A stretch of DNA of 64,000 bases from Dysidea avara (Eukaryota > Porifera > Demospongiae > Dictyoceratida > Dysideidae), in NCBI RefSeq assembly GCF_963678975.1, contig NC_089285.1, positions 4,264,694 through 4,328,693 on the forward strand. The letters are read 5' to 3'. This document shows, piece after piece, positions 4,417-63,721 of this stretch. The position numbers and the translations under genes were made by a program. The notes below the pieces were generated by a model. The model was not told where the DNA came from and did no database searches. It saw only the letters and a list, made by a program, of their open reading frames with translations. How positions within the stretch are numbered: position 1 is the first letter of the stretch; each line of letters starts with the position of its first letter.

Positions 4417-4479
<63 letters not shown>

Positions 4480-7446: not shown

Positions 7447-10400
7447 ATGCGCAGAACTAGTTCATGTCAGACAGTCGTGGAGCAGAAATATTCCACGATG
7501 GAAGATTTGAAGATGCCGAAACTTCATGTGTCTCAGTCACGAAAGCGCCGCAGCTGGGAGAGCGTGCTAACCATGGCAGTAGTGATACCTCTAATAGTTG
7601 CACTAGTGTCATCACCGATTGATCCCGTAGCTTACAAGTAAGTACAATATCGCGGCCGTTGGGCGCCTTGTGAACTTTTTAGTCTGTATTTTGTTGTGAG
7701 CTAGTGTGGGCTTGCTTTGTAGACTATTGTAGCTGATATTTTGTGCTATGTAGTAGCTGGCTTGCTCTGCTCCGTAGGTTATTTAGTGCAACATGTACGA
7801 CTTCGTGCATAAGACTATTGAATAGAATGTTTGTGATTGCACAGAAATACTATTGTTAAACCCATCTCTTTGCCTTTACCAGATATTCCAACAAAACGAT
7901 GCCAGAGTTAGTGGGTGTGCTAGCAGTGAACGATGGACTACAGAAGGCTACAAGATTAGAATTTGAAGGAGACATGGTTGGACCAGAAGCATTCGCAGTT
8001 GATAAAAATGGTACGAACCACACACATGTACCAGCCTGTCCATTACTCACAACTTTGCTTCAACTTAAATCTTATTGCACTACTAAGTTATCATTGTTAT
8101 TAGCTGTTAGACACACTGTAATACAATACTTCAACATTAGAAAATGTAGTTAGTGATGGTTGATTTCTCCAAAGTAACTTTTTGTTTTAAGATTGTGTCA
8201 TACAACAGGGACAATCTTTGGCCTCCCCAGTGTGTGTGTTTGTATACATGACCTCTTACAAGTGGTCTTGTTATTATCCATAGTGATTCTGTATACACTT
8301 ATTACAAGATTTACTGTAATATATTTTTACAGGAGACTTGTACAGTGGTCTGAAGGATGGTAGAATAGTCAAGATCAATGTTACAGATGAGAGCTACACT
8401 GTCATCTCAAGATTATCAGAGCCACCATATTTTCACTGTGGTAAGTAGCAGATGTGTAGTGTGGTTACTGCTTGATTGAGTGGGTCCAGTCAATTACACT
8501 ATAACTAATTGAACTAGCTTCAGCCACATATGGCAGCAATTGTCACTTCTAATTATATCATGTTAGCTTAGTAGGCTTTTGTGGGTACCACTTGGTTATG
8601 TTAATATCTCCTTAACAGTACTTACTTCAGTGGAATTAGTTATACTCTGTACAATGTTGTATGCCTCAATGTGCAACAGTAGTTTAAAGATGTTTGTTAT
8701 TGGTGTATACCCCAACTGAGTTGGTGCCAGATAGGTTGATGAGAAATGATATCATGAAGTTGTCTTGATGGGGTAGGTGTATTGGTTATTTATCACCTGA
8801 GCCCTTTTACATTTTAGTTTTACTCATTGCCTGAGGCTTTGAGCAGCTTTGATCATATTGCACATTGGGGGGGAGAATATGAGGTAGTGTGTCGAGTACA
8901 CTATGAATAGAGTTTTAATCTTTAGTAATATTGGGTGACAATCAAATAGGGTCTTTGTGTGTGTGTGTGTGGGAGAGACACAACTCTAATGTGCTGTTTT
9001 CTTTGTGTAGATTCTCCTGGGGAGAAGTGTAGTCGACCACTTGGATTAGACTTTGATCCCAATGGAAACTTGATTGTAGCAGATCCGTTTACTGGACTCC
9101 TCAAAATCAACGTCATCACTGGTGAAAAGAGCGTACTTTCTGGTGGAGAAGCATCAAGCTTTGCTGCATTCAACAATCTGGCTGTGCTACCCAATGGCAG
9201 TATCTTTGTTACAAAGTTTTGTCAAAGAAATGACTTTGCTTTGGAAGTGTTTGAAGGGATCCCAAGTGGAAAATTGCTTCATTACAACCCAGTGACAGAC
9301 ACTCTTCACACTGTAGTACCAGATCTATTCCTACCCAATGGTGTATCAGTAAGCAATGATGGCGAGTCAGTACTTGTGTCAGAGACTGGTAGAGCCAGGA
9401 TTCTGAGGTATGATTATAGTTTAAGCACCTTTAGAAACTTGTGGTTAACCTCTGATTAATCCTTTAGGTATTACGTCAAAGGTGCCAAGGCTGGTCAGAC
9501 TGAAATATTTGCTGACAATCTACCAGGACTGCCTGATAACATTCAGCCATCAAGCAAAGGAGGTTACTGGGTCGCCTTCCCATTCATCAGACATGTCCAG
9601 TCACTAGACTTCTTCGCAGAGAATGCTTGGCTAAGGAGGATACTAGTCCATGTAAGTTGCTCTCCCAAGACACTTACAATGGTATCTCTCTATTGAACAG
9701 TTTGTTAAACTATGCATGTGTAGACCTTGTATTAGTCCAAATAGAGTAGCCAAATTGCCAATGTATACATGCTATAAGTACTCCTTAGACAGGCTAGACT
9801 ATTGACAATTTGTGATAAAGGGTTATGACATAAATTAGTGGCCTATCTGTATTCCTAAATTTTGTTTGCTTACATTCCAAGGTATATACAATCAGTACAG
9901 TGATGTAAAGGAGTGTGAGATGGTGTGAGCTCATAGGACCTAGCCCAAAATTAATGGTATACTCATTACCTCTCAACTAAACACATTACTAACCTTATGA
10001 TAACTACTGTTTAGTGTGGGGGCTATATTATTATGTTTAGTTGTTCATTTTCTAAAACATTAGAAAATATTTTACAGGTGGAGTAATTGCCTGTTTGGTT
10101 CACTCAGTCTTCTAGTCTATCCAGTGTTTACCCCTCTTGTTACTATACATCAGTCTCAATAGCAACCACTGTAGAGCCAATCATGATCAGGTGTAGGACT
10201 CTTAACCTTATTAGTGGTTCAAGAGAATATGAGTAATTGTCCTCACAATAGTTATCACTTGAGTAATCATGGCTGATGAGAGGTCCTTATATTTGTAGTG
10301 ATGATGTTTACTGGGGCTTCTTATGTACACAAACACTGTTAGATATTATATTGACATCTTGTGTGCCTGACCATGGTAGTGGTGAATATGTAGAGTCTTA

Positions 10401-11093
10401 ATTTGTGGTAATATGATATCAAACACAGTTCTGGGCTTACTCGATCAGTTGTAGGCTTGTGTTAGTTGTGTGGGTTAGAGTTTAAGTTAGCAGTAACTGT
10501 ATAGCCGTAAGCAACATGGGTGCTTTAGGGAATCATTGTAAACTAGCAGGTTTCTTGTTAAGTAATGTCATTTGATCAAGTGTCTATCCTGTTTCTAGAA
10601 ACCCCACATTAATATATATTTTTTAAATTCTGACAGCCTGTTACTTTAGTAACATGTTAATTGATGATAGGTTGAAGGTGTTTAACACTTCATTCATCTA
10701 GTGAGATATCAAATTGTTTTGAACAAGTGTTAATTGTGCTGCTTCGTTTGGCATAGTAACAAAACGAACTGTTTCAAAGAGAGATACTGTGTGATTTGTG
10801 TGTATTTTAGTAGTGTTTTTAATAGTTCAATGTAGTTAATGTTGTTTTTTCTTTGTTTACAGTTTCGTGCCATCCTACCACTTCTTGTCCCCCAACATGT
10901 AATGGTGGCAAGACTTGATGAAAATGGTACCATAGTTGAGACACTTCATGACCAGGGTGCCCACACGTTACACAGCATCAGTGAAGCATTTGAGTACCAC
11001 AACGAACTACTCATCGGATCTTTTGATGCACCCTTCATAGGGAAACTAACATTAAACCACCAACACAGTAGTAATATCAGACCAGTTCATTAA
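7447..11093 (+). CDS. APMAP: APMAP-like protein (strictosidine synthase-like six-bladed propeller), 6 exons
   Basis: Joined exons 7447-7637, 7883-8010, 8333-8440, 9011-9407, 9468-9651 and 10863-11093 give 412 residues, close to the roughly 416 of vertebrate APMAP. All junctions are GT-AG and phases are consistent. The N-terminus is basic (SRKRRSW) followed by one hydrophobic segment at about residues 38-55, the family's type II membrane anchor. Conserved propeller motifs include GPEAFAVDKNGDLYSGLKDGR, CSRPLGLDFDPNGN, LFLPNGVSVSNDGESVLVSE, LPGLPDNIQPSSKGGYWV and, in the last exon, a stretch ending IGSFDAPFIGKL. Vertebrate APMAP is a membrane glycoprotein with reported arylesterase activity; whether this protein is an enzyme is unknown. 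An upstream in-frame ATG at 7405 would add 14 residues. Exon 6 also occurs as an inverted partial copy at 23.4-23.9 kb. Confidence 0.9.
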
Positions 11094-11150
11094 AATGGAG
11101 TTCTTGTTTTTTTAGCTGTAATATACCTGTATCATGTACATAACTTATCA
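10262..11150. repeat. Duplication block A (APMAP intron 5 end, exon 6 and 3' flank)
   Basis: This block has a reverse-complement partner (A') at about 23,385-24,430. It starts near 'gctgatgagaggtccttata' and ends near 'catgtacataacttatcaa'. It forms the left edge of the duplicated unit, so the breakpoint fell in APMAP intron 5 and the original gene was left complete. Confidence 0.85.
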
Positions 11151-14100
11151 AATCGACAACTACTGTAGTTTTTAAAATTAACTTGACTTTTTTTTGTATT
11201 GTTAGTTTTTGTATTGTGTTTGCCTCAGTTGATGTGTTCTTGTTGTATATGTGACAATGACTACTACCAATGAATTTTTATCAAGATTTTTTTACAAAAG
11301 AAACCAAGTGTACTACAAAACCATGGTGAAGTATTGGTTGGAGGTTGCTGGTGTTTGGGTAAACCCAAAGTACAGGCTTATGTTGATGCACTATATAGTA
11401 GGTCTATTTTTTTGTACATACCTGATAGAAATGGTACCTATGCATGTTGTTAAGGACATTGCTCAGTGTTCTGTGCAAGTGTCAAATATGTCACCTAAGG
11501 TTTCATCACCACTTGAAGAGCATAGTGACCTAGTAATGCATGAAAGATAGAAAGGGCTGTCATAGCATTAGCTATACAGTGCACACATGAAACTGAGCCA
11601 TGTGCCCAGTATCATTATGCTTTAGTACATGTGTCAGGTGATCCTTAGTTTTGTCAGCTGTGCTGGTGCATGTGATGTGAGTAGTGTCACAGCATTTTCC
11701 ATCCTAACTAGATAAGTAGACTTCTCCAAATACAGTATGTACCGTAAATCAGTATAGATAAAGTCTATGATATGAACCAGAAACCATTTGGTGAAAAGCT
11801 GTGGTCAAGTGATTTAGCTAAATCTGTCACAATTGTATCAGTTGGTCATGTACCAGCCAATAATGAATATCAAATTACTTTGTCAATCAGTGTAGGCCAA
11901 TGTATTGCCAACTGGTTAATTACCTGGTCTATATGACAATGTGAAAACTTGTGACAGGTTTGATGAAAATGTAATAATATTATAGTCCACACTGATTGAC
12001 CACAAAGAGATAATACTAGTTTGGACAATGTAGAACTCTGAGCTGGTAATACATGATCTGCCATAGTTAGTACTATAAACTAATAATCTCGGTATACATG
12101 ATAGCTACACTGACCACTTGCAGGATATGATATAATTCCTGCAGTGCGTAGAACTACAAAGTTAAGATGATGGTAGATGATAATGATTTTAAAGCACCGG
12201 AGTGTTTGTAGTCAAGGGTTTTGAACAAATAAACAAGTATGACTAATAGTGTGCAACTAGATACGAAGGCTGTCACTGCAAGTGATGAATGTACAACAAG
12301 TATTGTAGGAGGTTCAGTTGTACTAGCAATTCTATCTATCAGGTTTGAATATGACAACTTTGCCTCAGGTTGCATGTGTCAAGCGTTAGTTGCCATGGTT
12401 ATGCATACACAAGGCTTACACTGGCTGGTCATGATCACCTAATAGAAACCATCACAAAATAACTACACCACTACTGGGGTATCGTCACCCCAGGTGTTAT
12501 TGCATCGGGATGACCTGAAAATCCACACACACGTGCAACAACAATGTTGCCATGCATACTGTGTCACTTGTATCCATTGCAGCCTTACTACCTTGGGACG
12601 TGAATTGTTGGGGAACCACATGCGCAGTGTAGTGATAGGTGAGTCATCAGGTGCTTTCTTAAGGTAGTCACATTGACCACATTAATATATTCACTGAATG
12701 CATTAATAATAGTGTGCAAACTTGTGCTGTGGTCTGTCTACACATGTACTTACCTACAGGTATGTAGCTACCCGGCATTGCCTGTGAGCAGTCTCTGTAG
12801 CTGAACATCACACCTACCACACACAAGCAATGCAATTATCAGGTGAAGATGTATCAAGAATATCAAGGTGTGGTTGTATCACGTTACAGTAAATGTTTTG
12901 TCAAAGTCTTGAACCCAACTGATCTACATAATTCTTCAGTAGTTGTGGGGCTGTGCTCATGCATTATATTATCCACGTATGTATGCATGTTCCCCTGATC
13001 CACTACTATCTTCTTAGATAGCTGCTACATGTGTACATCCACCACATTGTCACTTGTCATTAACGAATACACCTAACACATCTCATGGAAGGATTTAATT
13101 AATCACTTGGTTCCTTTAACTTGTAGTGTGAACTTGCACAATTGTAACTAATAAATATCATTAGTGCTAGGTAGCTACATCAGATGTAACTAGCTATGGG
13201 TACCAATATGTGTATATGAATACAAGTAGACATTTCCTAGACTGCAGAGTTGACTAATGACAGTGTTGCTTATGTGGTATTGTGTATATGTAATGAAGAG
13301 CCATAAGGGCCTTGTGCCTTGCAGCAATTATGGGCTCCTGACGTAAATCATATCACCTATCTACTGCCTAAGTGTGTAACTGGTATAGTACTAATTGTAA
13401 ACCCAGAAAAAATGTAAAGCTTTCACAAGTTGGACAATATCATGAAGCACTTCAATTCAGTTTGATTGACGCTATCGAAAGTGGGTAACAACAAAAAAAA
13501 AGTTTAATTTGTTATGCAAAGTATTTCAAATCACAAATATCATTATTACTGCTCATGTAATAAAGGCTCAGCCAGATGGTAGCTACATCCAGAGCTGCAC
13601 ATTAATGATACTAGTGTTGATTAATAAACATCTTCAGTACTTGACAAAAGCCGTACACACAGGATTAACTAGCAAGCTGCTTAGGTGCAATTATTCAGTT
13701 TGAAAGTGCTTCAGTACAACTGATCAGCTGAACATCATCTATATGATGTGGTTCAATAGTGCCTAATAAGTGTGTAATTTGTATGACCATCTCATGTGTG
13801 TAATTAACTTGATAAGTATTACACCAGCCTACTAATCCTACATTTGTGGATACTCATCACTTTAATGAAACAGTGCCAGCAGGAGCCTATAGCTAGGCTT
13901 GCCTAGAATAATTATATTGACACTTGCAGCTCTTATACCATCCTATAGTTTTACACTGTACACTGCATGAGTGATTGGACATGACAAAGCATCCATGCAT
14001 CTTGTAAATAGCTTGTCATGACAGCTACAACCTAGCTGATCTCTATTCAGTGTAAAAATGCTCTCCCTCTTTTAACAGAAATGGCAAAATTTATATGTGT

Positions 14101-17100
14101 GGTGGAGCGTATAGCTATATCCAATTGCTAAATACCGGCAAACTCACTAAATCAATAATTATTGCAGTAGCAAAAAGCATCTCGTCAGTTCCTATACTGT
14201 GTTTAATAAATTAAAAGTAAAGTCAATTTGACTGATGAAATCACTAACAAACATTAGTACATAGGTGCTTAATGGTATTCACCACCAAAAAAATTGCTTT
14301 AAAGACATCTTGGATGGTGACCTTTAATTAGCCACAGGCCCATAGCAATTGTTAACATAGTTAATTGTTCTTGCTTATGAATACAATCCACCAATTACAT
14401 CATTATAGTAGCTAGCTAGCTACAAGAGTACATTTGGTACTTTACATTGCATAGTCAATTTTATTTGTTCACTGAGTTTCCAAGTCCATTTCTTAGAACA
14501 GATATGACCTAAGATGTAGCATTGCGTTTCCTTTAAGAAGACTTGCAATGATCTAACTTCGAATAGTGACTAGTGTTACACTAGTAAACCATATAAACAT
14601 CCAACTGTAGAATTGTGGGAGTGAGTGGATGTCTAGTTTTTTGGTGATTTCTATGCTTGAATAATGATGTGTGTTAAAGGAAATTCAAGGAACACACAAC
14701 ACTATAGCTAGGTAGTATTTGGTAGTATGCAAGGCTGGCTACCTATATAATGCTGCATGCTGCTCACATGTGTCTTACTTACCTTGTAGTATATATCATG
14801 TCTATACTGTGTAGACATCATAGTTATTTGAAATACAAAACCCTTAGGGGTCGCATAATAAAGTTCAAGTTATGAAAAGAGAACACAGAATTCAGTGCAC
14901 AACATTACATGTTAACATGATGCATATGTGCTGAAGCTTTTTTAGCAAGTAACTGATGATGTATGGATACTATGCATGGAGTGACATTATGTATGTAGAC
15001 GGCTAAACTCTAAACAACTGAATTAATTAGATCACAATATCACAAACTTGAATTTCTTTCCGACTATTCCCCAAAAGGATAAAGTGAGTGCTCACAGTAC
15101 TCACTAATATGACATTGGTGTTATCAATGGTCAATTGAGGCTGTGACTAAAAGGAGTGTAGTCAATATGGTATGGTCTGATTACAACTAGTAGCCGCAAC
15201 ACCTAACAGACTGTATGACTGGTGGGTTTGCATGAGCAGAGTGTTTATAGTAACTACAATAGATTTGTTGTCACATAATTAACTTTATGAAGACTATAAG
15301 AGAAAATGTTAAGCAACAATCAAGCGGTTTCTCACATAACACTCATAAGCTATATAACTTGCTGAGAATGCAACATAAAACTCTACATTATCAATCAGCT
15401 ATACATCATACAAGCACGTGTAGTGGTCTCCGTGCAAATTGTCTTTTACATTGTAACACTGACAGTTGTGTAATACAGCAGGCCTGCAAAATAAACGCTT
15501 TATTATTTGCAGGAGTAGTTTGTGCCAGATTTACATGTCATAACATCACAAGCAACCATTACAGCAATGATGTGTGATTATAGCTAATTGTATGTATTAG
15601 GTGTGGCTGTATCATGTTACAATATGTTTAGTGCTGCAGTTGTAGTGCATGTATGATCCATGTACCAGTGTATCTACACTGACTAGTACTTCCTTATGCA
15701 CTAATGACCTTGCGGCTTCCCCCAAATGTATATTGCCTCTTTCCAGTGAAATAGTATAGTTATTATAGCATGCATGGGTATAAGTTATAGCAGGAAGGCT
15801 GCAGCTGTGAATATACGATCATACATTACATTTCTACTTGTGAGGTACACAGAAAGTGACACTTTGATTCCTGGTTTGCATACGTACTATATTGTAGTGA
15901 TCTATCCAAAGAAACTATCAAAATTGGCAACAAGATCATACGTTTAGTAGTGGGACATTCATCATGTATAGGTATATTACTGTAGTGTGTGTTAGTACTA
16001 AACATGATTGCTAGTGTTATAAACAGGTCACTTTGTAATAGTCTAGCCAACATAATGTATAATGTTACTACTTCTTAGCAGTTTGTGTAACTAATTACAT
16101 ACACTGTTTTAAACATATTATTATTATTACTACACAACAGCATACTAAATATAATATTACTTTAGAAATGGCACATGAAAAGACTTGTGCCTTATTTCTG
16201 ACCTGCAGAACGAAAGATAAAAAGATTGTGGTTACTTGGGCAAGACCATTTGTATTCAGTTATATGAATACATTTCCAACAACTTGTAATTCATAGAAAA
16301 TCATCTTCCTGATGTGTTACCGGCTATACACAAATATTGTTGGGACTTTACCATCAATGTATTGTACCTTTTGAAGCCCTTAATGCACACTGATGTGTTT
16401 AAAGTTGTGTCCCATTTCCTTTGTGAGGTAAACAATAAGAAATAAAATAATAGAAGCCATATTTTGTATGTGGACAATTCTGTAGCAACAAAATACCATA
16501 CAGTTGTATCTGACATTATTTTTCCTGCATGTTATAAATGAATTATGTTATTATATATGGATGTAACACTTGCCATATACACACATCATAGTATTGACCT
16601 GTAATAAACACAATAAGAAAACTTAATTAATTAAATGGTTTAGTACATGAGTGTAACATAATTTGGTATTTCCTTTTAATAAATTAGAGAGTAGTTAAAT
16701 GAGCCTTCATTATTACATTGAAAAGCTACTTATTGTAACACAGTAAGTGCAATAAATGCAATGGCAATGTTGACAGCCTGTAGTATTGTAGTATGTGGAT
16801 CAGTAGACCAAACCATATTGTTTTGTTGTAGCACAGACAACAGTGTGTACTACCTTATCACAGGACAGTAAGATGATATACAGATATTACAAATTTTTAT
16901 CAGCATGGTGAAACCTTCCATGAGCTCAAAAAAGAGGTGCAAGAAATTAAATCTTGAACTTCAAAAAATAAATGGAATCCCTCACGTCAGATCCAAGCAT
17001 GCATGGAGCCTATAAAACATATTAGATTATCATATAATGTTGCGTGTACCATACAGCTCCTAGCAGGCTACCAAACTCACTATACTCATTGTGACCTCAT

Positions 17101-18929
17101 CCACAGAAATCTTTAGTAAATAAGGCAAAAGATTTATTTGCAGTGAGGTTGCATAATGGGGGCCAAAACCTGACTATAAAAATGGTCACATTAGAGAGTT
17201 GACTGGCCTTATAAGAAGCACGCAGACTGTTAATATTAGTGTATCTGTATAAATGTACATGCACTAACTACCACCAACCATTGTCAGTGTTGAAATCACC
17301 ACACTCATTTGGTCAATTCAAGTGGGAAGCTAGAAGAAGCCATAACCATCAAAACAATCAAATGTCCTTTACTATAGTCACAATGAGGTATACTAGGATG
17401 AACACCATTCTGTATTGGAACAGAGACCATAACTATGGTAGACACTTTCTTATACTTATGTTTAAATAAGGGAATGTATACCATCCCCCATTCATGAAAT
17501 GCTGCAGTTTCACTGCTTGTTAATACATTTCAACTGTGGATACAACTGCAAATGAATCATATTCATTTATTACACAGATGAAAATGTACCTGGAGATGAA
17601 TGCTCTATTAGAGCATAGTATTGCCAGCAACAGTGTAGCATGATCAGTTTCATTCGGTATACCGTACCATGTGCATAATAATATGTATATAGTTAACAGG
17701 TGGAGCCTTGTACATATAACCCATATAAATACCAGTCATCGTGACCATCTCATGCCAAAACTTAAAACTCACTACCGTTGTTATGCATCACTGTAAGCAG
17801 TGTTTGTAATGGTATACTTGACAACGTATTCAAATTTGCTACTCCCTATTAGGGTAAACAAGCCTCCCTCGGCATATAATATTTCCAAATGAAACGACAC
17901 ACAGTGATATTGATGACAAGTTTAAGGTTGACTGTCTTTCTTACCGGCAGCTTGTTGCACATGTGCTGCTGCAACAAACCACACAATTATTCAAATTAGG
18001 ATTCATTTCATGTTGCTTCCACAATGACAGCTACAACATGTAATACACAACTACACCAAACTAGACCATAATTTAAACTATATTTAAAACTTGTCACTAA
18101 AAATAGCAGCAAGGTGGAGGTGCTACAAGATTCAAATAGGCATGTAAACTTACTGATTATAGTAATCCTTGAACAATGCTGAACATCACACTAATTAAAA
18201 ATATATAGTAAGAGAACAAGATGTAGTGTCTGCTACTAATACAAATGATTTTTTCTACAACTTAAATTATATTCATGCACTAGGCATCTGAAAAAAGCTC
18301 TCTCCACCATGTGCAATGAAGATGGTATACTACTTCCATCACTATGGTTACAATTTTAATGATACTGCTCTTTACAAAAAGCCATTGTGTGCATGCATAA
18401 TCATATACATTGCAAACCATGCCATATTGGTGAAGGTGTCGTATTAAAATCCCCCATAGTGATTCACCAGTTAGCCTAAGATACACAAACAGAAACATTA
18501 AAACTTACCAGTAAAATAATGGCTTCCAATAGCACAAAGAATTTTGATATAATAGTAAGCAACATCATCTCGGTGCTTCCATCACTCCTTAATTGTCTAA
18601 AACCTGCATTGTGCTTTGTACATGCGTATACTGTACAATAGTTTTGTATACACAAAAAATGTATCATCCATGTGTACACTACATACATGGAGAACATGTG
18701 CAGTTTGCTATGACAATCTTGTAGTAAAATAGACTACGTCATTTGTAGTAGAAAGATCTTTCATAGACTACGTATATATGCTAGACAAAACATATTTCAG
18801 TAGATATTCATGATGATCACATAATAATACATCAGGATGAAGTGTGGTGTATTAGATTACAGGATAGTGTGTCCTGTGGTGTGCTATGGTACAGTTTGAG
18901 TGATGTAATAATAACAGTAAAATTAATTA

Positions 18930-20652
18930 TCACCATCCTGGAGCAGTTTGTGCCAATCTTCTCATTCTCCTGAAAAGCAAAATTACATCACAAGTGACAT
19001 CACAAAATAATTTAAACAGGTAAAGACTACAAGTTGTGAGCTGTATTAGGTACGCACCTTGTGTTTCTGTCCTGGTCTCTTATCTTCTTCTCCATCTCGG
19101 CATCACTTAGTACCTGTATTGTGGGACCCCGTGTTTCCAGATCTGCTGGAGGTCTGACTGGCATCTTTACTGTCGGCAGTGGAGCTTCACTAATAAAATT
19201 AAAAAAATGGATTGTGGTGATCTAAGGGAAATTCATGTCACTACTTGTAATCATTAATGTAGGGCTGCAAAGGATACAATTACCTGCTTGGATTAAGGAC
19301 AATTATAAAGTAATCAAAGACAAATCAACTATTACTAGTATAGCAGGTAAACTACTAATAACTCTTACCATTTCACCTACGATTTACTCTATATTCTGAT
19401 CAAGGCATGTAAACGATGTTGATTATAATAGCACCTGCAAATTGGTAGTTGGTTAAAATGGTAATACAGCCTAAAATGGACAGAAGTTACTCTGGACACT
19501 TAACCATGGTCCCAATTGTATTAGTGTGCATAAATTTGGACTCCTGTAGTGCTGAGCAACATGACAATATTTTAGTCAAACCGAGGTATCTGTTTTTGAT
19601 ACTGTGCAATATTTTGACTAATGCAAATATCGTGGATTCTAAAACACAAATCTTATCTGTACGAAGACAGTACATACGAATGGATGTGTATATACTGCAG
19701 TCGGCTTTCAACGGAATTATATTATTATTGAAAAATGATTAGGGTCTAAGTCTAGAACTACAGACCAACTAATGCATGCCAATGATTTAGTCATACTGTA
19801 ATATCAAGTTGACAATACTGTATTGTTTATGAAATGTCAAAACTGCTCAGCACTATTCTGAATTCAGGACACCTGACTACAGACCCCTGACTATAGACCC
19901 AAGCTGTCAGGTGTTGCAAGTTAATCATTTTCAAAATGTCATTACAATTACACTGATCATAACTCGGTGCCTTGGATACACATTTTTCTGTAAAAAACTT
20001 TTGTGTACAGCAGTAGTACAATCAGTCAAACTCTCTGGCTACTACAACAGATAAAAGGTAGCCAATCATATCACATTGCATATCAGCTTCAAATATTTGA
20101 TCTCCATGTTCACACATTAAATTATCAGGTTTTGTGTACATGATCAGTTGACAACACAACAGAAACACTCTGCACATGGCTTTGCTGTTTACCCCGTTTA
20201 TTGACAATAGGCTTTATCTGATACGCACCCTTGTGCCGACATGACAACCATAACAAAGTGGAATTCATTACTCAGCTTAATTCCATTTATAATCAAAATG
20301 TACTTGAGAACATTGTTTTCCAATATATTATACCTGTTACCAATAAGGTTGAATAGTGAATATGATGCCAAATATAATGCCAAACTCATACATATCACAT
20401 AGCTAATACAAATTGTTATTTCTATATATTACATGATTGTTACCAGTAAGGTTGTGTGTACCTGAATGCATATGTTCTTGAGTGCCAGCTCAGTTGTCCT
20501 CTGATGGAATAAGCTATGGCTGTGACAAACTCTCCACCAAGTCCCAAGTCAGCACACAACTTCCTGGCAAACTCCTCAGGACTGTTCAGGGGGTTGGACA
20601 GGTCCCACTCAAACTGGTCCACCAATGAGATGTTACCAACATGGAGATTAAG
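18930..20652 (-). pseudogene. SMARCB1: Orphan copy of SMARCB1 exons 4-6
   Basis: Three exons, 20462-20652, 19058-19189 and 18930-18969, match the last three exons of the complete SMARCB1 gene in length, phase and splice sites. Exons 1-3 are absent here. Exons 4 (191 bp) and 6 (40 bp) look identical to those of the complete gene. Exon 5 differs at two bases: one is silent, the other turns a Trp of the C-terminal part (ETWGP) into Arg (ETRGP). That Trp aligns with a Trp in the human protein. There is no frameshift or stop. It could be a decaying fragment, or an alternative 3' end reached by read-through from SMARCB1, because it lies downstream of that gene on the same strand. Confidence 0.88.
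19547..19855. mobile_element. MITE with TAGTGCTGAGCA termini, copy 1
   Basis: The ends are inverted repeats: TAGTGCTGAGCA on the left and TGCTCAGCACTA on the right. Related copies lie at 35,580-35,965 (its duplicate in block B2) and 48,818-49,184 (an independent insertion in TCHP intron 14). No coding capacity is seen. The superfamily is not determined. Confidence 0.7.
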
Positions 20653-21099
20653 CTAAGGAAGGAAACAGGATACCTGCTTAGATAATTCTGTGCATGCGTG
20701 CGTGCGTGTGTGTGAGTGTGTGTGTGCACATGTATATATGTGTACGTGCGTGTGTAGTATATTAAATTTATAGTAGTAACAACCTACTTATCCTCTCAAT
20801 ACACTATATACACACGTTATTAATGGAATATACTATTCAAGATATTTCGTATAATTTGCTATTTCCTCTACAACACATTATATCACTGCAAGTGATTTTC
20901 TTTTCCTTGATATCACCAAAACTTCAAGGTGCCAAATTAAATAAGTGCTTCTTGCACTAGATCACTTCTTTATTTAACTGTGTATATTTGTGACTTGTGA
21001 CCTGGATGTACGCACATGCAGACATGCACGTACACACACACACACATACGTTTGTGTAGTGTGTGTATGTGTGTGCATGGTATTTGCGTGCTTGTCAGA

Positions 21100-23261: not shown

Positions 23262-23385
23262 TATTATTAGCACTTTACAGTGACCAGCACTGAGGGTCTG
23301 ACAGCAACATGTGCTGCAGCCTTAGGATTACCTAACCTAATTTCAGGGACTTAGACCTAATGACTTGACACAGAAAAGGGGCCAA
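23262..23385. mobile_element. SINE family B, tail fragment at the duplication junction
   Basis: The sequence 'agcactttacagtgaccagcac' through 'cctaacctaatttcaggga' recurs at 37,228-37,380 and, more briefly, at 58,180-58,245. It sits exactly between block B and inverted block A', so it marks or post-dates a rearrangement breakpoint. Confidence 0.6.
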
Positions 23386-23441
23386 AGTTGATAAGTTATG
23401 TACATGATACAGTATATTACAGTTAAAGAAAGAACTCCATT

Positions 23442-28039: not shown

Positions 28040-28955
28040 AGGTAGTGTTATGACAGAGCTATATGGATGTACTGGCTGTACGTAGAATTTAACTGATACA
28101 AAAAATCCCTTTTGAGCAGCTTGTGCGTTAGTGCGTATGTGCAGGTGTGTCATGGGTTATACCGACACATCATTACCACATCAACACTTGAAAATTAAGT
28201 GGAGTGTCAATTGTGTGTGTGTGTGTGTGTAAAATAGAAAACTGTTGCTGACCTCATGAATACACTGAACTTCACCATTTCAAGTTCCAGTGCCGTATGT
28301 TGTAACACTTATACATCACACTGACTCACATGCAAGTATGTAGCTATGTATGCAGTACATTAGTGTATAGTTAGCATATGTATTTGACTAGCTGTGCTTA
28401 AGATAATATCAAGCCCCTAGTTGCATTGCTGACAACACACACCTTTTTAAAATGCTACACATTTTCAAAATTTCTATAGAGTGTACACATCATGATCAGT
28501 ACTGGCATAAAACCACTTGACACTAGCAGACATGACGCCATTGCAGTAATCAAAACCTGTATGGCTGCGTAAAATGGTCTGTCTGTGTCTTTTTCTTTGA
28601 ATTCATTTCTTGGCTAATGGAAGGTGTGGGCCAAAATGTTGTGACATAAAGGAGTTAATAAATGATCTATGGCATTTGATGATTGTAATGTATTGATGAA
28701 GCAGTCTGCTTATAAGGATGTTGATTATTTCGTTAAGACTCCTCAGTAATGGAAGGACATACCTGTAGTTGTGATGCATGTAATAGTGTCAGTATTATTA
28801 TAGTGACCTCATTGTACCCAGCCCAACATTAGCACTGCTCTGGCACTACCTCTTAATTACTTACCTTATGATACAGTTCATTTTTGCTCATTGAGTGAAG
28901 TAATTTTTTTTAGTAGCTATGTGCACAGCAGTCTAACTTTTGACATTTAGTTATG
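28040..28955. other. Segment present only in block B2
   Basis: Block B reads directly from 'cactgcatgag' to 'tgattggacatgac' (13,960-13,985). Block B2 has about 0.9 kb between the equivalent points, bounded by 'gttatga' on both sides. It could be an insertion here or a deletion in the other copy. No coding frame or terminal inverted repeat was found. Confidence 0.6.
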
Positions 28956-31900
28956 ATTGGACATGACAAAACATCCATGCATCTTTCAAATAGCTTGTCA
29001 TGACAGCTACGACTTAGCTGAGTGTTAAAAAAAAAAATGCTCTTCCTCTTTTAATAGAAATGGTAAAATTTATATTTGTGTGCGGTGGAGACAGGAGAGT
29101 ATATCTAATTGCCAATGCAAACTCACTAAATCAATGATTAATTACAGTCATCTCTTCAGTTCTTAAATAAATTAAAAGTGAAGCCAATTTGACTGATGAA
29201 ATCACTAACAATTTGCTGGGTAGAAAGGTGCTCAATGGTATTCACCACCAAATTGCTTTAAAGAAGTATACATGTGATTTGACATCTTGGATGGTGGCAC
29301 TTAATTAGCATAGCAACTGTTGACATAGTTTGTTGCTCTTGTTTATGAATACAATCCATCCATTACATCATATTATTATTACATCATTATATAGTAGCTA
29401 TAGCTAGCTACAAGAGTACATTTGGTACTGTACATAGTCTCGCGTGCCCGACCCATAAAGTCTGGTGCGCGAGACTATACTGTACATTGCATAGTCAATT
29501 TTATTTGTTCAGTTTCCAAGTCCATTTCTTAGAACAGATATGACCTAAGATGTATCATAGCTTTTCCTTTAAGAAGACTTGCAATGATCTAACTTCGAAT
29601 AGTGACTAGTGTTATACAAGTAAACCATATAAACATCCAACTGTAGTGTTGAGGGAATGAGTGGATGTCTAGTTTTTTGGTGATTTCTACGCTTGAATAA
29701 TGATGTGTGTTAAAGGAAAGTCAAGGACTGGCAACACTATAGGTTGCATTTGGTAGTATGTAGGGTTGGCTACCTATTATAATGTTACACGTGTCTTACT
29801 AAACTTGTAGTATATCATGTCTATACTGTGTAGACATCAGAGTTAGTTATTTGAAATATGAAATCCTTAGGGGTCACATAATAAAGTTCAAGTTATGAAA
29901 AGAGAACGCAGAATTCAGTGCACAACATTCACATGTTAACATGATGCATATGTGCTGAAGCTTTTTTAGCAAGTAATTGATGATGTATGGATACTATGCA
30001 TGGAAGGATATTATGTATGTAGACGGCTAAACTCTAAACAACTGAATTAATAATCAAAATATCACAAACTTGAATTTCTTTCTATTCCCCAAAAAGATAT
30101 TCCTAAATTTATAAGTGAGTGCTCACAGTACTTACTGACATGACATTGGTGTTATCAATGGTCAATTGAGGCTGTGACTAAAAGGAGTGTAGTAAATATT
30201 GTATGGTCTGATTACAACTAGTAGCAACACCTAACAGACTGTATGACTGGTGGGTTTGCATGAGCAGAGTGTTTATAGTAACTACAATGGATTTGTTGTC
30301 ACAGAACTAGCCTTATGAAGACTATAAGAGAAAATGTTAAGCAACAATCAAACAGTTTCTCACATAACACCCGTAGGCTACTATAACTTGCAAATTTCCG
30401 AGTATGCAACATACACTCTACACCATCAATCAGCCATACATCATACATGCACGTGTAGTGATCTCCATTCAAATTGTCTTCTTACAATGTAACACAGCTG
30501 TGTAATACAGCAGGCCTGCAAAATAAACACTTTATTATTTGCAGGAGTAGTTTATGCCAGATTTACATGTCATCACATCACAAGCAACCATTACAGCAAT
30601 GATGTGTGGTTATAGCTAATTGTATGTATTAGGTGTGGCTGTATCATGTTACAATATGTTTAGTGCTGCAGTTGTAGTGCATGTATGATCCATGTACCAG
30701 TGTATCTACACTACTTCCTCATGCACTAATGACCCTGCGGCTTGCCTTTTTCCAGTGAAATAGTATAGCTATTATAGCATGCATGGGTATAAGTTATAGC
30801 AGGAAGGCTGCAGCTGTGAATATACGATCATACATTACATTTCTACTTGTGAGGTACACAGAAAGTGACACTTTGATTCCTGGTTTGCATACGTACTATA
30901 TTGTAGTGATCTATCCAAAGAAACTATCAAAATTGGCAACAAGATCATACGTTTAGTAGTGGGACATTCATCATGTAGAGGTATATTGCTGTAGTGTGTG
31001 TTAGTACTAAACATGATTGCTAGTATTATAAACAGGTCACTTTGTAATAGTCTAGCCAATAACATTACTATGTGTTGGATAGCAGTTTGAGTAACTAATT
31101 ACATAAACTGCTTTAAAACATGTTAAGTATACTTTAGAGAAGGCACACAAAAGACTTGTTCCTTATTTCTTACCTGCAGAATGAAAGATAAAAGAATGTT
31201 TTAGTGTATAAATTTTACATAATCTGATTAGGAAATTGTGGTTACTTGGGCAAGACCATTTGTATTCAGTTATATGAATACGTTTCCAACAACTTGTAAT
31301 TCATAGAAAACCGTCTTCCTGATGTGATACTATACAAATATTGTTGGGACTTTACCATTAGCCTATTGTACCTTTTGAAGCCCTTAATGCACACTGATGT
31401 GTTTAAAATTGTGTCCCATTTCCTTTGTGAGGTAAACAATAAGAAATAAAATAATAGAAGCCATATTTTGTATGTGGACAATTCTGTAGCAACAAAATAC
31501 CATACAGTTGTATCTGACATTATTTTTCCTGCATGTTATAAATGAATTATGTGATTATATATGGATGTAACACCTGCCATATACACACATCACAGTATTG
31601 ACCTATAATAAACACAATAAGAAAACTCTAATAAATGGTTTAGTACACAAGTATAACATAATTTGGTATTTCCTTTTAATAAATTAAAAAGCAGCTAAAT
31701 AACTTACTGCTCATTTCTGTGCGTAAGAAGAGCCTTCATTATTACATTGAAAAGCTACTTTGTAAAACAGTAAGTGGAATAAATGTAATGCAATGTTGAC
31801 AGCCTGTAGTATGTGGCTCAGTAGACCATTTGTTTTGTTGTAGCACAGACAACAGTGTGTTCTACCTTATCACAGGACAGTAAGATGATATACATATAAC

Positions 31901-33890
31901 TGATTGGTACAAATTTTTATCAGCATGGTGAAACCTTCCACAAGTTCAGAATAAAGGTGCAAGAAAATTAAAAATTTAAGGTCAAATAAGTGGAATCCCT
32001 CATGTCAGCTCCAAGCATGCATGGAGCCTAAAAAACATATTGGATTATCATATAATGTAGCAGCTCCTAGCAGGCTTCCAAACTCACTATGCTCATTGTG
32101 ACCTCCTCCACAGAAACTTTAGTAAAAGGTAAAAGATTTATTCACTCTGAACCAGTGAGGCTGTATAATGGTCAAAACCTGACTATAAAAGTGGTCACAT
32201 TAGAGAGTTGACTGGCCTTATAAGAAGCACGCAGACTGTTAATATAAGTGTATCTAACTACCACCAACCATTGTCAGTGTTGAAATCACCACACTCATTT
32301 GGTCAATTCAAGTGGGAAGCTAGAAGAAGCCATACTGACCATCAAAACAATCAAATGTCCTTTACTATAGTCACAATGAGGCATACTAGGATGAACACCA
32401 TTCTGTATTGGAACAGAGACCATAACTGTGGTAGACACTTTCTTATACATAAGGGAATGTATACCATCCCCCGTTTCACTGCTTGTCAATACATTTCAAC
32501 TGTGCATACAACTGCAAATGAATCATATTCATTTATATTACACAGATGAAAATGTACCTGGAGATGAATGCTCTATTAGAGCATACTATTGCAAGCGCAA
32601 CAGTGATCAGTTTCATTCGGTATACTGTACCATGTGTATAATAATATGTATATAGCTAACAGGTGGAGCCTTGTACATATAACCCATATAAATACCAGCC
32701 ATCGTGACCACCTCATGCCAAAACTTAAAACTCACTACCGTTGTTATGCATCACTGTAAGCAGTGTTTGTAATGGTATACTTGCCAACGTATTCAAATTT
32801 GCTACTCCCTGTTAGGGTAAACAAGCCTCCCTCGGCATATAATATTTCCAAATGAAACAACACACAGTGATATTGATGACAAGTTTAAGGTTGACTGTCT
32901 TTCTTACCGGCAGCTTGTTGCACATGTGCTGCTGCAACAAACCACACAATTATTCAAATTAGGATTCATTTCATGTTGCTTCCACAATGACAGCTACAAC
33001 ATGTAATACACAACTACACCAAACTAGACCATAATTTAAACTATATTTAAAACTTGTCACTAAAAATAGCAGCAAGGTGGAGGTGCTACAAGATTCAAAT
33101 AGGCATGTAAACTTAGTAATCCTTGAACAATGCTGAACATCACACTAATTAAAAATATATAGTAAGAGAACAAGATGTAGTGTCTGCTACTAATACAAAT
33201 GATTTTTTCTACAACTTAAATTATATTCATGCACTAGGCATCTGAAAAAAGCTCTCTCCACCATGTGCAATGAAGATGGTATACTACTTCCATCACTATG
33301 GTTACAATTTTAATGATACTGCTCTTTACAAAAAGCCATTGTGTGCATGCATAATCATATACATTGCAAACCTTGCCATATTGGTGAAGGTGTCCTATTA
33401 AAATCCCCCGTAGTGATTCACCAGTTAGCCTAAGATACACAAACAGAAACATTAAAACTTACCAGTAAAATAATGGCTTCCAATAGCACAAAGAATTTTG
33501 ATATAATAGTAAGCAACATCATCTTGGTGCTTCCATCACTCCCACAAACTTAATTGTCTAAAACCTGAATTGTGCTTTGTACATGCGTATACTGTACAAT
33601 AGTTTTGTATACACAAAAAATGTATCATCCATGTGTACACTACATACATGGAGAACATGTACAGTTTGCTATGACGATCTTGTAGTAAAATAGACTACGT
33701 CATTTGTAGTAGAAAGATCTTTCATAGACTACGTATATATGCTAGACAAAACATATTTCAGTAGATATTCATGATGATCACATAATAATACATCAGGATG
33801 AAGTGTGGTGTATTAGATTACAGGATAGTGTGTCCTGTGGTGTGCTATGGTACAGTTTGAGTGATGTAATAATAACAGTAAAATTAATTA

Positions 33891-36800
33891 TCACCATCCT
33901 GGAGCAGTTTGTGCCAATCTTCTCATTCTCCTGAAAAGCAAAATTACATCACAAGTGACATCACAAAATAATTTAAACAGGTAAAGACTACAAGTTGTGA
34001 GCTGTATTAGGTACGCACCTTGTGTTTCTGTCCTGGTCTCTTATCTTCTTCTCCATCTCGGCATCACTTAGTACCTGTATTGTGGGACCCCATGTTTCCA
34101 GATCTGCTGGAGGTCTGACTGGCATCTTTACTGTTGGCAGTGGAGCTTCACTAATAAAATTTAAAAAATGGATTGTGGTAATCAAAGGGAAATTCTCGTC
34201 ACTACTTGTAATCATTAATGTAGGGCTGCAAAGGATACAATTACCTGCTTGGATTAAGGAGAATTATAAAGTAATCAAAGACAAATCAACTATTACTAGT
34301 ATAGCAGGTAAACTACTAATAATTCTTACCATTTCACCTACGATTTACTCTATATTCTGATCAAGGCATGTAAACGATGTTGATTATAATAGCACCTGCA
34401 AATTGGTAGTTGGTTAAAATGGTAATGTACCACTCTGCGTGGGCAGTTCAAAGGCACCGCCAGTGCCATAATTTGTATATTGAACTGCTGCAGACCGCAG
34501 CGAGTGCATTATAACTTATAACGCACTGGTTGCGGTTTTGTAGACCACAACGAGTGCATTATAAGTTATAATGCATCGACCGCAGTGCAATATACAGATA
34601 TTGCACTGGCTGCGGTTTTGTGCAGCATAGCACAAGTGCCGGTGGCGAAGACCACTATGACACCTCACCTAATAGGTGGAAGGACACTTCACAGATCACT
34701 CGAATTCTTTTATAGCCTGACATGTAAAGGTCGATTGTGGGCCATAACGTCACCAATACGTATAATGTTTACAAGCAGCCAATGGCGATCGAAAAAGCCA
34801 ACACGGGTGGCCACAACTCTAGTCTACATATATATATTAATGTACTTATACACCTTACTAATCTGGTGCCATCTTAGCCCAGATTAAACTGTAGTCCACT
34901 TCGACAATGACTCAATAAAACAAATATATTCTAAATAATACTAACCTTTACGTTCGATTGTGGTAACCAGTTTTGTCATGCCACCAGATTCGAGTTTAGC
35001 CAGTGTGAATAGTAAGAATTAGACTAGTATCGTTTAGTAGTTGGGTTTTGTTTACTTAAAATGTCTATTTAGCTACTTTTTTTCGCTCGAGGGAATCCCT
35101 ATGGCGATTAGTCTGGCGCTTAGTCTATATGGCGATTGAGTGATCACGCTGGCATGTTGAGCACTACATAATGAGAGCCGAACAGCGAATGCAGGTTAGT
35201 GATATAACCCCATAGCGTACTAGCTTTCAATGTCTCAGGTGGCTGCAGTACTGCAGGGGGACGTCATCGCAACGTCCGGCTTGGTTACCCACAATCGATG
35301 TTAGAAACCTGGCCTTTATAAGTGTTACAGCTGTCTTGTGAGACCCTCTCCACCTATTAGGTGAGTGGTACATAACAGTTATACAACGTGCACTCGTGCT
35401 CTGCCTGTATAAACGCACTTGCCTTCGGGCCTAACGGCCCTCAGGCTTGTGCGTTTATATCAGGCAGAGCACTCGTGGCCGTTGTATAACTATATAATAC
35501 AGCCTAAAATGGACAGAAGTTACTCTGGACACTTAACCATGGTCCCAATTGTATTAGTGTGCATAAATTTGGACTCCTGTAGTGCTGAGCAACATGACAA
35601 TATTTTAGTCAAACCATGGTCATCCATTCATATAGTCAAACCATTAGTCATCCAACCATTAGTCAAACCATGGTCATCCAACCATGGTCATCCATTCATT
35701 CGTTTTTGATACTGTGCAATATTTTGACTAATGCAAATATCGTGGATTCTAAAACACAAATCTTATCTGTACGAAGACAGTACATATGAATGGATGTGTA
35801 TATACTGCAATCAGCTTTCAACCGAATTATATTATTATTGAAAAATGATTAGGGTCTAAGTCTAGAACTACAGACCAACTAATGCATGCCAATGATTTAG
35901 TCATACTGTAATATCAGGTTGACAATACTGTATTGTTTATGAAATGTCAAAACTGCTCAGCACTATTCTGAATTCAGGACACCTGACTACAGACCCCTGA
36001 CTATAGACCCAAGCTGTCAGGTGTTGCAAGTTAATCATTTTCAAAATGTCATTGCAATTACACTGATCATAACTCGGTGCCTTGGATACACATTTTTCTG
36101 TAAAAAACTTTTGTGTACAGCAGTAGTACAATCAGTCAAACTCTCTGGCTACTACAACAGATAAAAGGTAGCCAATCATATCACATTGCATATCAGCTTC
36201 AAATATTTGATCTCCATGTTCACACGTTAAATTATCAGGTTTTGTGTACATGATCAGTTGACAACACAACAGAAACACTCTGCACATGGCTTTGCTGTTT
36301 ACCCCGTTTATTGACAATAGGTTTTATCTGATACGCAGCCTCATGCCGACATGACAACCATAACAAAGTGGAATTCATTACTCAGCTTAATTCCATTTAT
36401 AATCAAAATGTACTTGAGAACATTGTTTTCCAATATATTATACCTGTTACCAATAAGGTTGAATAGTGAATATGATGCCAAATATAATGCCAAACTCATA
36501 CATATCACATAGCTAATACAAATTGTTATTTCTATATATTACATGATTGTTACCAGTAAGGTTGTGTGTACCTGAATGCATATGTTCTTGAGTGCCAGCT
36601 CAGTTGTCCTCTGATGGAATAAGCTATGGCTGTGACAAACTCTCCACCAAGTCCCAAGTCAGCACACAACTTCCTGGCAAACTCCTCAGGACTGTTCAGG
36701 GGGTTGGACAGGTCCCACTCAAACTGGTCCACCAATGAGATGTTACCAACATGGAGATTAAGCTAAGGAAGGAAACAGGATACTTGCTTAGATAATTCTG

Positions 36801-37114
36801 TGCATGCGTGCGTGCGTGTGTGTGTGTGTGTGTGCACATGTATATATGTGTACGTGCGTGTGTAGTATATTAAATTTATAGTAGTAACAACCTACTTATC
36901 CTCTCAATACACTATACACGTTATTGATGGAATATACTAGTCAAGATATTTTGTATAATTTGCTATTTCCTCTACAACAAATTATATCACTGCAAGTGAT
37001 TTGATATCACCAAACTACAAGGTGTCAAATTAAAATAAATGCTTCTTACACTAGATCACTTCTTTATTTAACCAGGTGTATACTTGTGACTTTGTGTCCT
37101 GGTTTCTAATGCAC

Positions 37115-37186
<72 letters not shown>

Positions 37187-37820
37187 TTGTGCAGCATGTG
37201 CATGTGAGCGTGTGTCAGAATTATTACTAACACTTTACAGTGACCAGCACTGAAGGTCTGACAGCAACATGTGCTGCAGCCTTAGGATTACCTAACCTAA
37301 TTTCAAGGACTTAGACTTATTGACTTGACATAGTGACTGACTTAATGACTGAAAAGGCGTAACAGAAAAGGGGCCAAAGAAAGGAAAAAAAATCCCTCCA
37401 ACCCCAAGATTCGAACTGCAGGTCACCCAATGTCTAGTCGGGGCCACGCTCAGTCTTCCTCCAGGAGGGATGGATGGTTAGAGCACAGGCCTGGTAGTCA
37501 CAAAGTTCTAGGTTTGATGTTCCATGATATTGTTGTTTCTTCGAGCAAGAAACTGTGCTCACATTGCTCCAGCCTACTCAGCTACATATTGGGTACCTGG
37601 TGGGAATTGATGCCCGACTGTTCTTGTCTCGCTTAGCAGTCATTGTCGAAATTAGGGATCTATAGCCTCATGAGACTTGGACAGTCCTGCTGCAGGTTAC
37701 TATTCCTGCCCCAGCTGCCTGCACAGATTTGAGAACCTAATGGTGCACATTTATCCCAGTTTGATGGGAGACAGTAGCTGTGTTTTACACTGCTGCAGGA
37801 GACTTTACCTCGTGTGTGCA

Positions 37821-37900
<80 letters not shown>

Positions 37901-40900
37901 TGACTAAGTACCTTCATTTGTCAACAGGCTTACAGCCCATTAAGGTCCATACAGCTGTACACCATAATATCCGCCACACAGTGTGGTAGAATGATAGCTA
38001 GGAGGGCACTTCTCAGTGATTGGGTATTAGTAGTGTTCTTATAACTGAAGCCCACTGAGAAGACAACAATGTTGTGTTTACTTGCAATAAGTTATGCATA
38101 TTAATCCTACTAATTGTTTGCTACTGTACATATTGTATTTTGGTGGTTACTGTGGTAACTAAGTGTCAACTAATTTGTGTGGCTCTTCCACTTGTATCCC
38201 CACTAATGGCCAGTAATATTATCTATACAGAGCTCTACCACACTTGTATATCACCCACACACACCCACACTAATCACTCCCCCTAACTGAGCACACAAAA
38301 TGGCCATCAAATCACTACACACAGTCAGTCAAGCAGACTTGAAGCCATAGCCATCAAATGGCCACACAGCCAGTCTGCCCTCACACTAATATATTGCAGT
38401 CATGCACATTTAACACTGAACTAAATATGAATATCGACAAGCACATGTCAGGGAGTGGTGACAAGTACAGAGGACCACTGATGTGGTCAATGTACTACAG
38501 TACTGTAGGATTCCCAACAAACTTCTCTGAAAATGGGCTGAACTCTGGACAATTTGATCATGGTAACACCTCACATTGTTGTCATGAGAGAACCAATACT
38601 CTTCATCATGTAACACAGCCAGTCAGAGGACACCTGTCTAATAAGGCCATCACACTAGTTTCCAACATATGACACGGATAACTTGATACATGACTGGACT
38701 AGGTAAATGAAAACATTGTCTTAGGGTACTTCAAAAGGGCCATTGTACACATTAAGTTTGACATAGCACATGGTCACACAACACACGAACAAGTGGATAC
38801 TGCTTTTCTACAAGATATGTACAGTAGGCACCAAAAGATCTCTTAAATAAAATTATTTACACACAGTGATAACTAAATGAAATGAAACACTTCAAATACA
38901 CTGTGGTGTTTTAATGATTCTCTGTCAAAATTTTCTGTAAATGATATTTGAAAATGTACAAGGAACACATCATACTCCTGAGTCTTGACAACTATACTCC
39001 ATACTAAATACTCATACTCTACATTCTTGATGACTACAGTGAACCCTGTTAGTTAGGACACTTGAAAATGAGGACACCTGCAAAATCTGTACACTTTGTA
39101 ACTGTCATAAAGTATGTAAACTGACCTGGACACCTTGATAATCAGGACACTTTTGGTGGTCCCATGGTGTCTTTAATACACAGGCTTCACTATAGTTAGA
39201 CCATCACACAAATCTCTACCATATGAGATTACAGTGGAAGCTCTATCATGGACATTTTGGGACCCAGAAATTCACACAATATTTGCTGTAGAGGATTTCA
39301 GAGGTGAAAAAGGTCAGACCAAAGTCTTTGCCCTTAACAATAAGAAGGTTTTATTTGTTATGTCCTTAATTCAGGGAGTTTGCTAAGATAGGAGTCCACT
39401 GTAGCTCCCCAATTCGATAATGCTGAGCTTATCCCTCACGGTGAAACATTGGAGGGATGAGTAAAGCACATTTAAATTGAACCACTTTTGAAGTACACTT
39501 TTTGAATGATAAAAATTCAGTGAAATGAACTCTTTGGAATTCAAAGAATATCTTAGGCTTATAGTAATGTACAGGTATTAAATCACAAGAGCATCAAAGC
39601 CTTGCTGGTTCAATGGGCTCCTTTATTCAGCACACTTGTAGTGTGTGTTATGTCTGTTTTGAAGTGTGATTGAAGTGTTTCATTTCATCTAGTCATCACT
39701 GTATGTAAATAATTTTATTTTAAGAGATCTTTTAGTGCCTCAGGTCGTGATACAAGCAATGTGTGTTCAATCTCTAGACAATGTTTCCAGTGACCAGAAC
39801 TGGGCCTGTGAATGTAATGTGATTTCTATGTACAGCGTATTACCTCCTGGTCCTATATTTGGCTCTAAAGTTATAAATTGAGACGAATGAGGGAACCATA
39901 AAGGCTTGGTGAATGATTTCCTTCACTTCTGGGTGGCAGAAAGCAGGTACCAATAATACCACTAATAATGGTGGTATGAATGTATGCACATTCTTCACAC
40001 AACAGCTCGTTCATGGCTCCCACTACCAGTCAACTCTAAACTCTCTGTTGCCATAGCGCTTTAATAGGAATGAACAAGTTGTTTACAAAAAAATCAATTA
40101 AGAGAAGACCCCCAAGATTAATTTAATGTATCTATACAGAACAAGAACACCATCAATACATGTATAGCAGAGATATAGCTTGGTTCCCAGCATTCCTTTG
40201 AATCCTTTCTCAATGGCAGGGTTTTCATATGCAGATGGCAGGCTCATAAACATATAAGAGCTAAGTGTTTACAGTTACAGATTCCCAAATGCAGTCACTT
40301 TCAAAACTATTAAGGCTACCAACAAACAGAAACAGCCACATTGTCGTCAATTGTCATCTGCACATCTGATAACTACACAACTTTGTACGCCACTACTCAG
40401 TCTTCACCTGCCCTACAAGCTGTAGGGTAAAGTACGCACTTCATTATCTACATGGACACAAGGTCATGGTGTAAGTATATTCACCAGATTTAGGTAATAA
40501 ATATATTCTAAGCATAACCAAGAGTTCACAATATTAAGTAGCTAGCCCTTCCTGGCATTGGTACAATTAATTCAACACTGAAAACTTTCAAAATGAATGT
40601 AAACATCAACAGATACTTAGTAGTCACACTTTGCTGCATAAACATCGAGTGGTAACTTTCATAACGGTCTCTATACTCACCTCCTCTACATTCTCATTGT
40701 ACATTATAACAAGAACAATGTAAATGCATTAGCATACTGTCTATAAATGGTTCAATAATGGGTATCCTGAAACACAGGATAATGAGGATATAGTACCCAG
40801 TTAAATTTTGCACAAGCTTTACACACAGTACACACAAGTACTAGTACACACATGTCACAAGGCATACCTTAATGACCACCCTCCTATCATCCCCATCATC

Positions 40901-63387: not shown

Positions 63388-63721
<334 letters not shown>

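Follow-up and report, generated by a model that had tools for sequence, protein, structure and literature searches.

Junction sequences and divergence of an old tandem duplication with an inverted seam in the genome of the sponge Dysidea avara

Rearrangements that join duplication with inversion have been described in several animals. In the duplication-inverted fragment-duplication class (dupINVdup), a single-copy middle segment lies inverted between two duplicated flanks. The locus described here lies in a 64,000-nucleotide stretch of the genome of Dysidea avara (RefSeq assembly GCF_963678975.1, contig NC_089285.1, positions 4,264,694 to 4,328,693 of the forward strand), referred to below as the window. 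Its signed block order is a-b-a^-x^-b2-x, in which a caret marks an inverted copy; each of the blocks a, b and x is present twice, and b is direct in both places. This is an old tandem duplication with an inverted seam, clear in the sequence and instructive, yet an ordinary kind of rearrangement. The duplicated unit covers the 3' parts of two genes that converge on each other: the last exon of an APMAP-type gene on one side and, on the other, the final three exons of SMARCB1/SNF5.

The original prediction, which was based on the letters of the window, had likened the locus to the human dupINVdup class. Under the definition given above the likeness fails on block order: here b occurs twice and is direct both times, and what is inverted is the duplicated ends, so that this class was rejected. 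What the human cases have in common with the sponge locus, as outlined in PMC5338099 and PMC6286558, is an inverted segment with duplicated sequence at its sides, and the latter account also describes microhomology and repeat insertion at junctions. Short inverted repeats at a junction are likewise shared with the duplication-triplication/inversion-duplication (DUP-TRP/INV-DUP) class, with tandem inversion duplication (TID) and with origin-dependent inverted-repeat amplification (ODIRA), as summarized in PMC4689423. In the inverted triplications outlined there, however, a central inverted copy of the unit stands between two others, with x^ before a^, whereas in the window each block is present twice and the inverted order is a^ then x^; these models were therefore also rejected.

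Two further animal loci are of a related kind. A complex duplication-inversion allele of rcan-1 in Caenorhabditis elegans also left complete and truncated gene copies, but it comprises five tandem inversions/duplications, originated in a laboratory line and has a measured phenotype, according to the outline in PMC7058356. At the Fm locus of Silkie chickens, as sketched in PMC3245302, duplicated regions are likewise joined in inverted orientation and wild-type boundaries are kept, but the two regions exceed 100 kb each, a 417-kb single-copy part lies between them and there are two new junctions. With tandem duplications that carry a secondary inversion the sponge locus shares a direct second copy, original outer boundaries and end-joining scars; it differs in that the seam itself is inverted, and in being an old event found in an assembly rather than a de novo one. 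An identical block order was not recognized in the literature surveyed at the level of titles and opening lines of abstracts, which does not show that it is absent from print.

To define the blocks, the window was compared with itself by BLASTN (E up to 1e-10; 120 of the 128 matches were listed), and the block edges were refined by global alignment and exact word positions. All three approaches bore out the predicted order A-B-A'-X-B2-X', with the coordinates given in advance correct to within a few tens of bases. The blocks are as follows:

about 10264-11151, + strand: block A (outer copy), last exon of a strictosidine-synthase-like (APMAP-type) gene, with the end of the intron before it
11152-23244, + strand: block B, first copy of the direct repeat, holding the orphan last three SMARCB1 exons on the - strand
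about 23388-24423, - strand: block A', A inverted (self-BLASTN, alignment)
24475-25123, + strand: block X, X' inverted, from within a SMARCB1 intron (self-BLASTN, alignment)
25120-39656, + strand: block B2, second copy of the direct repeat, with SMARCB1 3' exons in line with the 5' exons
39657-40334, + strand: block X' (outer copy), inside the SMARCB1 intron that separates the exon with its end near 40868 from the one that starts at 36762

The seven largest pieces of the self-comparison scored 787 to 4521 bits, well beyond the chance level. B and B2 match directly in five main BLASTN pieces, each 1.5-3.3 kb long and 87.5-96% identical, while the inverted pairs A/A' and X/X' show BLASTN identities of 89.6% and 93.3%, and of 90.2%, respectively. 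B measures about 12.1 kb and B2 about 14.5 kb, a difference to which insertions contribute, one of them being the 1072 bp at 34423-35494 of B2. Given the unequal lengths of B and B2, the size of 13-15 kb proposed earlier for the duplicated unit is corrected to about 13.7-16 kb. Beyond the blocks, the only sequences common to the left-hand and right-hand portions of the window among the matches listed are scattered repeats, including microsatellites such as that at 4419-4477.

The block orders that can be reached from a single copy, a b x, were enumerated using four operations (copy, inverted copy, inversion and deletion), and breaks were allowed only where blocks meet or end. No single step of these kinds yields the observed order. 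The sole route of at most two steps is a tandem duplication of a-b-x followed by inversion of the seam x-a, which is the route that the original prediction had named as inversion of the central X'A piece. The coincidence of the breakpoints with block boundaries, cited at that time as evidence, carries no weight: it is true by construction, because the inversion itself sets where A and X end.

The three internal junctions of the rearrangement are listed below. The terms "SINE-like" (short interspersed element) and "MITE-like" (miniature inverted-repeat transposable element) are used here as descriptive names, with no repeat library behind them.

23245-23399, - strand: J1 (b to a^), composed of AAGTTAT at 23245-23251, a SINE-like insert at 23252-23387 and TTGATAAGTTAT of A' at 23388-23399
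24394-24474, unstranded: J2 (a^ to x^), original seam of the tandem duplication, with inverted arms and short repeats
25115-25127, unstranded: J3 (x^ to b2), microhomology of about 5 bp (TCAAA) common to both parent sites, with no filler seen

Within the window, the J1 insert has partial relatives at 37221-37333 (94%) and 58164-58216 (85%). Read on the - strand, its start is preceded by ATAACTTATCAA, identical to the end of A at 11140-11151, and at its other end an A-rich tail leads into ATAACTT, after which comes b. AAGTTAT flanks this tailed repeat on both sides; the flanking repeat is 7-12 bp long, and its copy on the right is longer, reading TTGATAAGTTAT, which complements the outer A end (11140-11151) exactly. 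According to the alignment, the outer A copy does not contain the repeat. J1 looks like the product of retroposition, in which a target-site duplication of up to 12 bp was formed and its 3' copy was later split by the inversion; this reading of the letters fits J1 on both its sides and does not conflict with J3. If the repeat is an insertion, it postdates the two A copies, because the outer A is without it, and this absence together with the target-site-like flanks makes duplication, repeat and inversion the simplest order of events. An insertion later than the inversion would have had to strike exactly at the junction, and five bases would have had to match by chance, for which we estimate about 1 in 1000.

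At J2, perfect 18-bp inverted arms (24394-24411/24420-24437) stand 8 bp apart, and AGGTCCTTA occurs three times (at 24425, 24438 and 24446); elsewhere in the window it is found only at 10281, in the corresponding part of A. The SINE fragment and the short palindrome reported previously were thus located correctly, the insert occupying about 23252-23387 and the arms the positions just given. The scar at J2 is of the sort expected from end joining with local template switching and is suggestive of it.

J1 and J3 between them contain, give or take a few bases, the sequence from both sides of two breakpoints, P (39656/39657) and Q, and to judge from these letters the two junctions look like the reciprocal outcome of a single inversion with breaks at P and Q. 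An inverted repeat at 38826-38902/39663-39740 (78 columns, 91%; 95% against a copy at 22436-22514) was considered as a possible fragile hairpin near P. This 78-79 bp inverted repeat is also present at 25055-25118, and the inner edge of its arm is 6 bp from P.

The duplicated unit begins in an APMAP-type intron, takes in the last exon of that gene, an intergenic part and the three final SMARCB1 exons, and ends within a SMARCB1 intron. The SMARCB1 exons are distributed as follows:

40868-42498, - strand: SMARCB1 5' exons, outside the duplication (Pfam INI1_DNA-bd and SNF5)
coding 36762-36574, 34149-34018 and 33929-33894, - strand: SMARCB1 3' exons in B2 (Pfam, PDB match, alignment)
18933-20652 (coding 20652-20464, 19188-19057 and 18968-18933), - strand: orphan SMARCB1 3' exons in B (alignment with B2)

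Open frames 42498-41884, 41570-41403, 41158-40844 and 36762-36553 of the - strand match Pfam INI1_DNA-bd or SNF5. No Pfam match was obtained for the SMARCB1 C-terminal exon, the identity of which is supported instead by the PDB, where exon 34149-34018 finds solved chains of SMARCB1, 6lth_M (E 9.2e-14) among them. On the other side, the + strand open frames 7860-8150 and 8950-9456 match Pfam SSL_N and Str_synth and represent APMAP-type upstream exons. Open frame 10836-11090 (+ strand) in block A, for which Pfam gave no match, is presumably the last APMAP-type exon, assigned by reading.

The outer A is collinear with the upstream APMAP-type exons, and B2-X' with the upstream SMARCB1 exons, as judged from open frames. 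The outer copies are still attached to their upstream exons; the inner ones have been orphaned. In B, the three SMARCB1 exons retain intact reading frames and splice-site words but have no adjoining 5' exons. Over the exon intervals as drawn here they differ from those of B2 at 2 of 391 sites; one difference is synonymous, and the other replaces W (in B2, common to the PDB chain) by R (in B). The A' exon is disrupted by a duplication of about 22 bp (Tandem Repeats Finder row at 23775) and by a second SINE-like insert, which has a relative at 54946-55065 (84%).

Nine of the 24 open frames of at least 55 aa in 25126-34000 were compared with Pfam, and none scored above the cut-off; a weak Pellino_RING match (E 0.068) stayed below it. 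The Pfam comparison left out the open frames of B and of 34000-39656, except the SMARCB1 exon 36553-36762, and further genes in the unit are possible. Neither Rfam (gathering scores) nor ARAGORN (bacterial code) reported anything in the window.

It had been proposed that equal divergence of A/A', B/B2 and X/X' would support a single event. As a test of this kind the comparison is invalid and was rejected: an inversion does not reset divergence, and the figures do not date the inversion because every copy pair split at the duplication, which is the only event that they date. The pairs are also unequal. A and A' differ at 56 of 869 sites, X and X' at 27 of 635, and B and B2 overall at 769 of 11605, the last pair being a mosaic with a low-divergence core (52 differences in 3573 sites, compared with 717 in 8032 outside it). 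A/A' versus X/X' gives a Fisher p of 0.07; both A/A' (p 0.013) and X/X' (Fisher p 2e-5) lie below B outside the core, and A and X pooled show no difference from the whole of B (p 0.11). Strict uniformity of divergence fails, and A and X may also have been converted. Two features of the mosaic are described below:

17183-20821, matching 32192-36925, unstranded: low-divergence core of B, probable conversion tract or tracts
34423-35494, unstranded: B2-only insert of 1072 bp in a SMARCB1 intron, nested MITE-like by eye, GTACCACTC...GAGTGGTAC

Divergence between B and B2 varies by segment, from 1.2% (17850-20860) through 3.1% (12300-13380 and 15590-16110) to 13.2% (11190-12300) and 21% (20860-21490), although the last segment contains microsatellites and repeats and its value is partly alignment noise. 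The longest substitution-free stretch covers 513 sites, as against a mean of 104 and a maximum of 188 in 500 shuffles, and the dispersion index is 12. The lower edge of the core is gradual, and other patches at about 3% are present. Coding constraint was ruled out as the cause of the near-identical core, because its noncoding sites are equally low, differing by only 1.6% compared with 8.9% outside. We infer that gene conversion best explains the B/B2 mosaic, and a mix-up of haplotypes in the assembly is less likely. The B2-only insert, which includes a self-complementary element at 35377-35491, sits in the near-identical core, and it either postdates the last conversion there or escaped it.

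To this locus we assign, with a probability of about 0.6, a staged origin by tandem duplication, SINE-like insertion, seam inversion and later conversion between B and B2. We infer the order of the steps and the enzymes involved from the junction sequences. An ancestral a-b-x segment, with one end in the last APMAP-type intron and the other in an intron of SMARCB1, the convergent neighbour, would have been duplicated in tandem and, judging from the scar, the seam would have been sealed by error-prone end joining with local snap-back synthesis, giving the 18-bp inverted copy and the short repeats. A SINE-like element would next have landed at the edge of the central A copy. An inversion of 1.7-1.9 kb, spanning x, the seam and a, would then have followed, broken at P and at Q, with the Q break inside or beside the 3' flanking repeat of the element. 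Its ends would have been rejoined with little loss, through the TCAAA microhomology at J3 and with no obvious homology at J1. The outer genes would have retained their upstream exons while the inner copies turned orphan, and gene conversion would later have held the 3.6-kb SMARCB1 core near-identical while the remainder drifted further. A more specific version, in which the retroposition break at Q was itself joined to the break at P, beside the inverted-repeat arm, and so flipped the seam, and in which, separately, the in-frame SMARCB1 3' exons of B, lying downstream of the gene in its own orientation and held near-identical by conversion, could act as an alternative distal 3' end, appears improbable when both parts are taken jointly.

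Several points weigh against the staged origin. The order of its steps hangs on about five letters (ATCAA beside the repeat) and, for the 5' end of the repeat, on one other copy (37221), and the repeat may have arrived later than the inversion, in the very junction. Alignment on the B side of J3 is poor (73 of the first 100 aligned columns), which makes the exact break uncertain. The 64-kb window holds three clusters of perfect arms of at least 18 bp within about 78 bases, J2 being one of them, so the J2 arms alone are suggestive and not proof. Finally, under independent events it is a coincidence that just the seam piece was inverted, by our estimate about 1.7 kb of roughly 29 kb. The short inversion across the seam would no longer be coincidental if the locus had arisen by a single replication-based event, as the original prediction suggested, with a fork switching template three times (b to a^, a^ to x^ and x^ back to b) in a process like microhomology-mediated break-induced replication or fork stalling and template switching (MMBIR/FoSTeS). 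The close spacing of three junctions (inside 2 kb), the inverted filler of J2 and the J3 microhomology agree with such an event, and among the cases outlined in PMC6286558 is a complex variant with a 100-bp Alu insertion at a junction. The block pattern that inspired this proposal is real, but the enumeration found no one step giving the order, so several template switches would be required; J1 bears a tailed repeat with an apparent target-site repeat, missing from the outer A, which favours separate steps; and J1 and J3 appear reciprocal, as cut-and-rejoin inversion gives. We regard the single event as possible, though unlikely.

The mosaic of identity, ranging from 1% to over 10% divergence by segment, resembles two alleles in an outcrossing animal, and false duplications in assemblies are documented (outlined in PMC9516828), so two diverged haplotypes joined in one contig have to be considered as well. 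Such a join would be expected head-to-tail and not with an inverted seam, and the junctions display inverted filler, microhomology and a repeat insert instead of joins at long shared sequence. The A' exon is disrupted by two events (the short duplication and the insert), and the window contains no N. An assembly artefact is judged very improbable. The orientation of B need not be original either, since A and A' form inverted repeats of about 0.9 kb around it and a flip by recombination between them is feasible; the locus could then have begun as a -b -a -x b x (minus signs marking inverted blocks), produced by two inverted-copy insertions, and this isomer has exactly one two-step route in the enumeration. 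It takes three steps to reach the observed order by that path, compared with two for duplication and seam inversion, and J1 and J3 resemble reciprocal products of one inversion; we hold this beginning to be, if anything, slightly less probable than the artefact.

Other features of the window lie outside the duplicated blocks. A (TGCC)n array at 63388-63720 comprises 83 copies with a 100% match; it is open in several frames, which are most likely not genes. Two inverted pairs were found, one at 43701-44041/46000-46385 (279 columns at 94% and 67 columns at 93%, about 2 kb apart) and one formed by a dispersed repeat at 319-576/57299-57568 (274 columns, 78%). A 706-aa open frame with an RRM domain (59966-62083) perhaps represents a largely single-exon gene for an RNA-binding protein. 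The - strand open frame 51931-52200 is ubiquitin-like, with a Pfam ubiquitin match below the cut-off, and reads like Elongin B.

The locus provides a worked example of how junction scars suggest the order of steps in an old complex rearrangement, and it cautions that a complex variant seeming to have arisen in one step may be built in stages. It also represents a partial duplication of SMARCB1, a core chromatin-remodelling gene, with orphan exons near-identical to those of the gene. Such exons would mislead divergence dating and could confuse gene models and assemblies.

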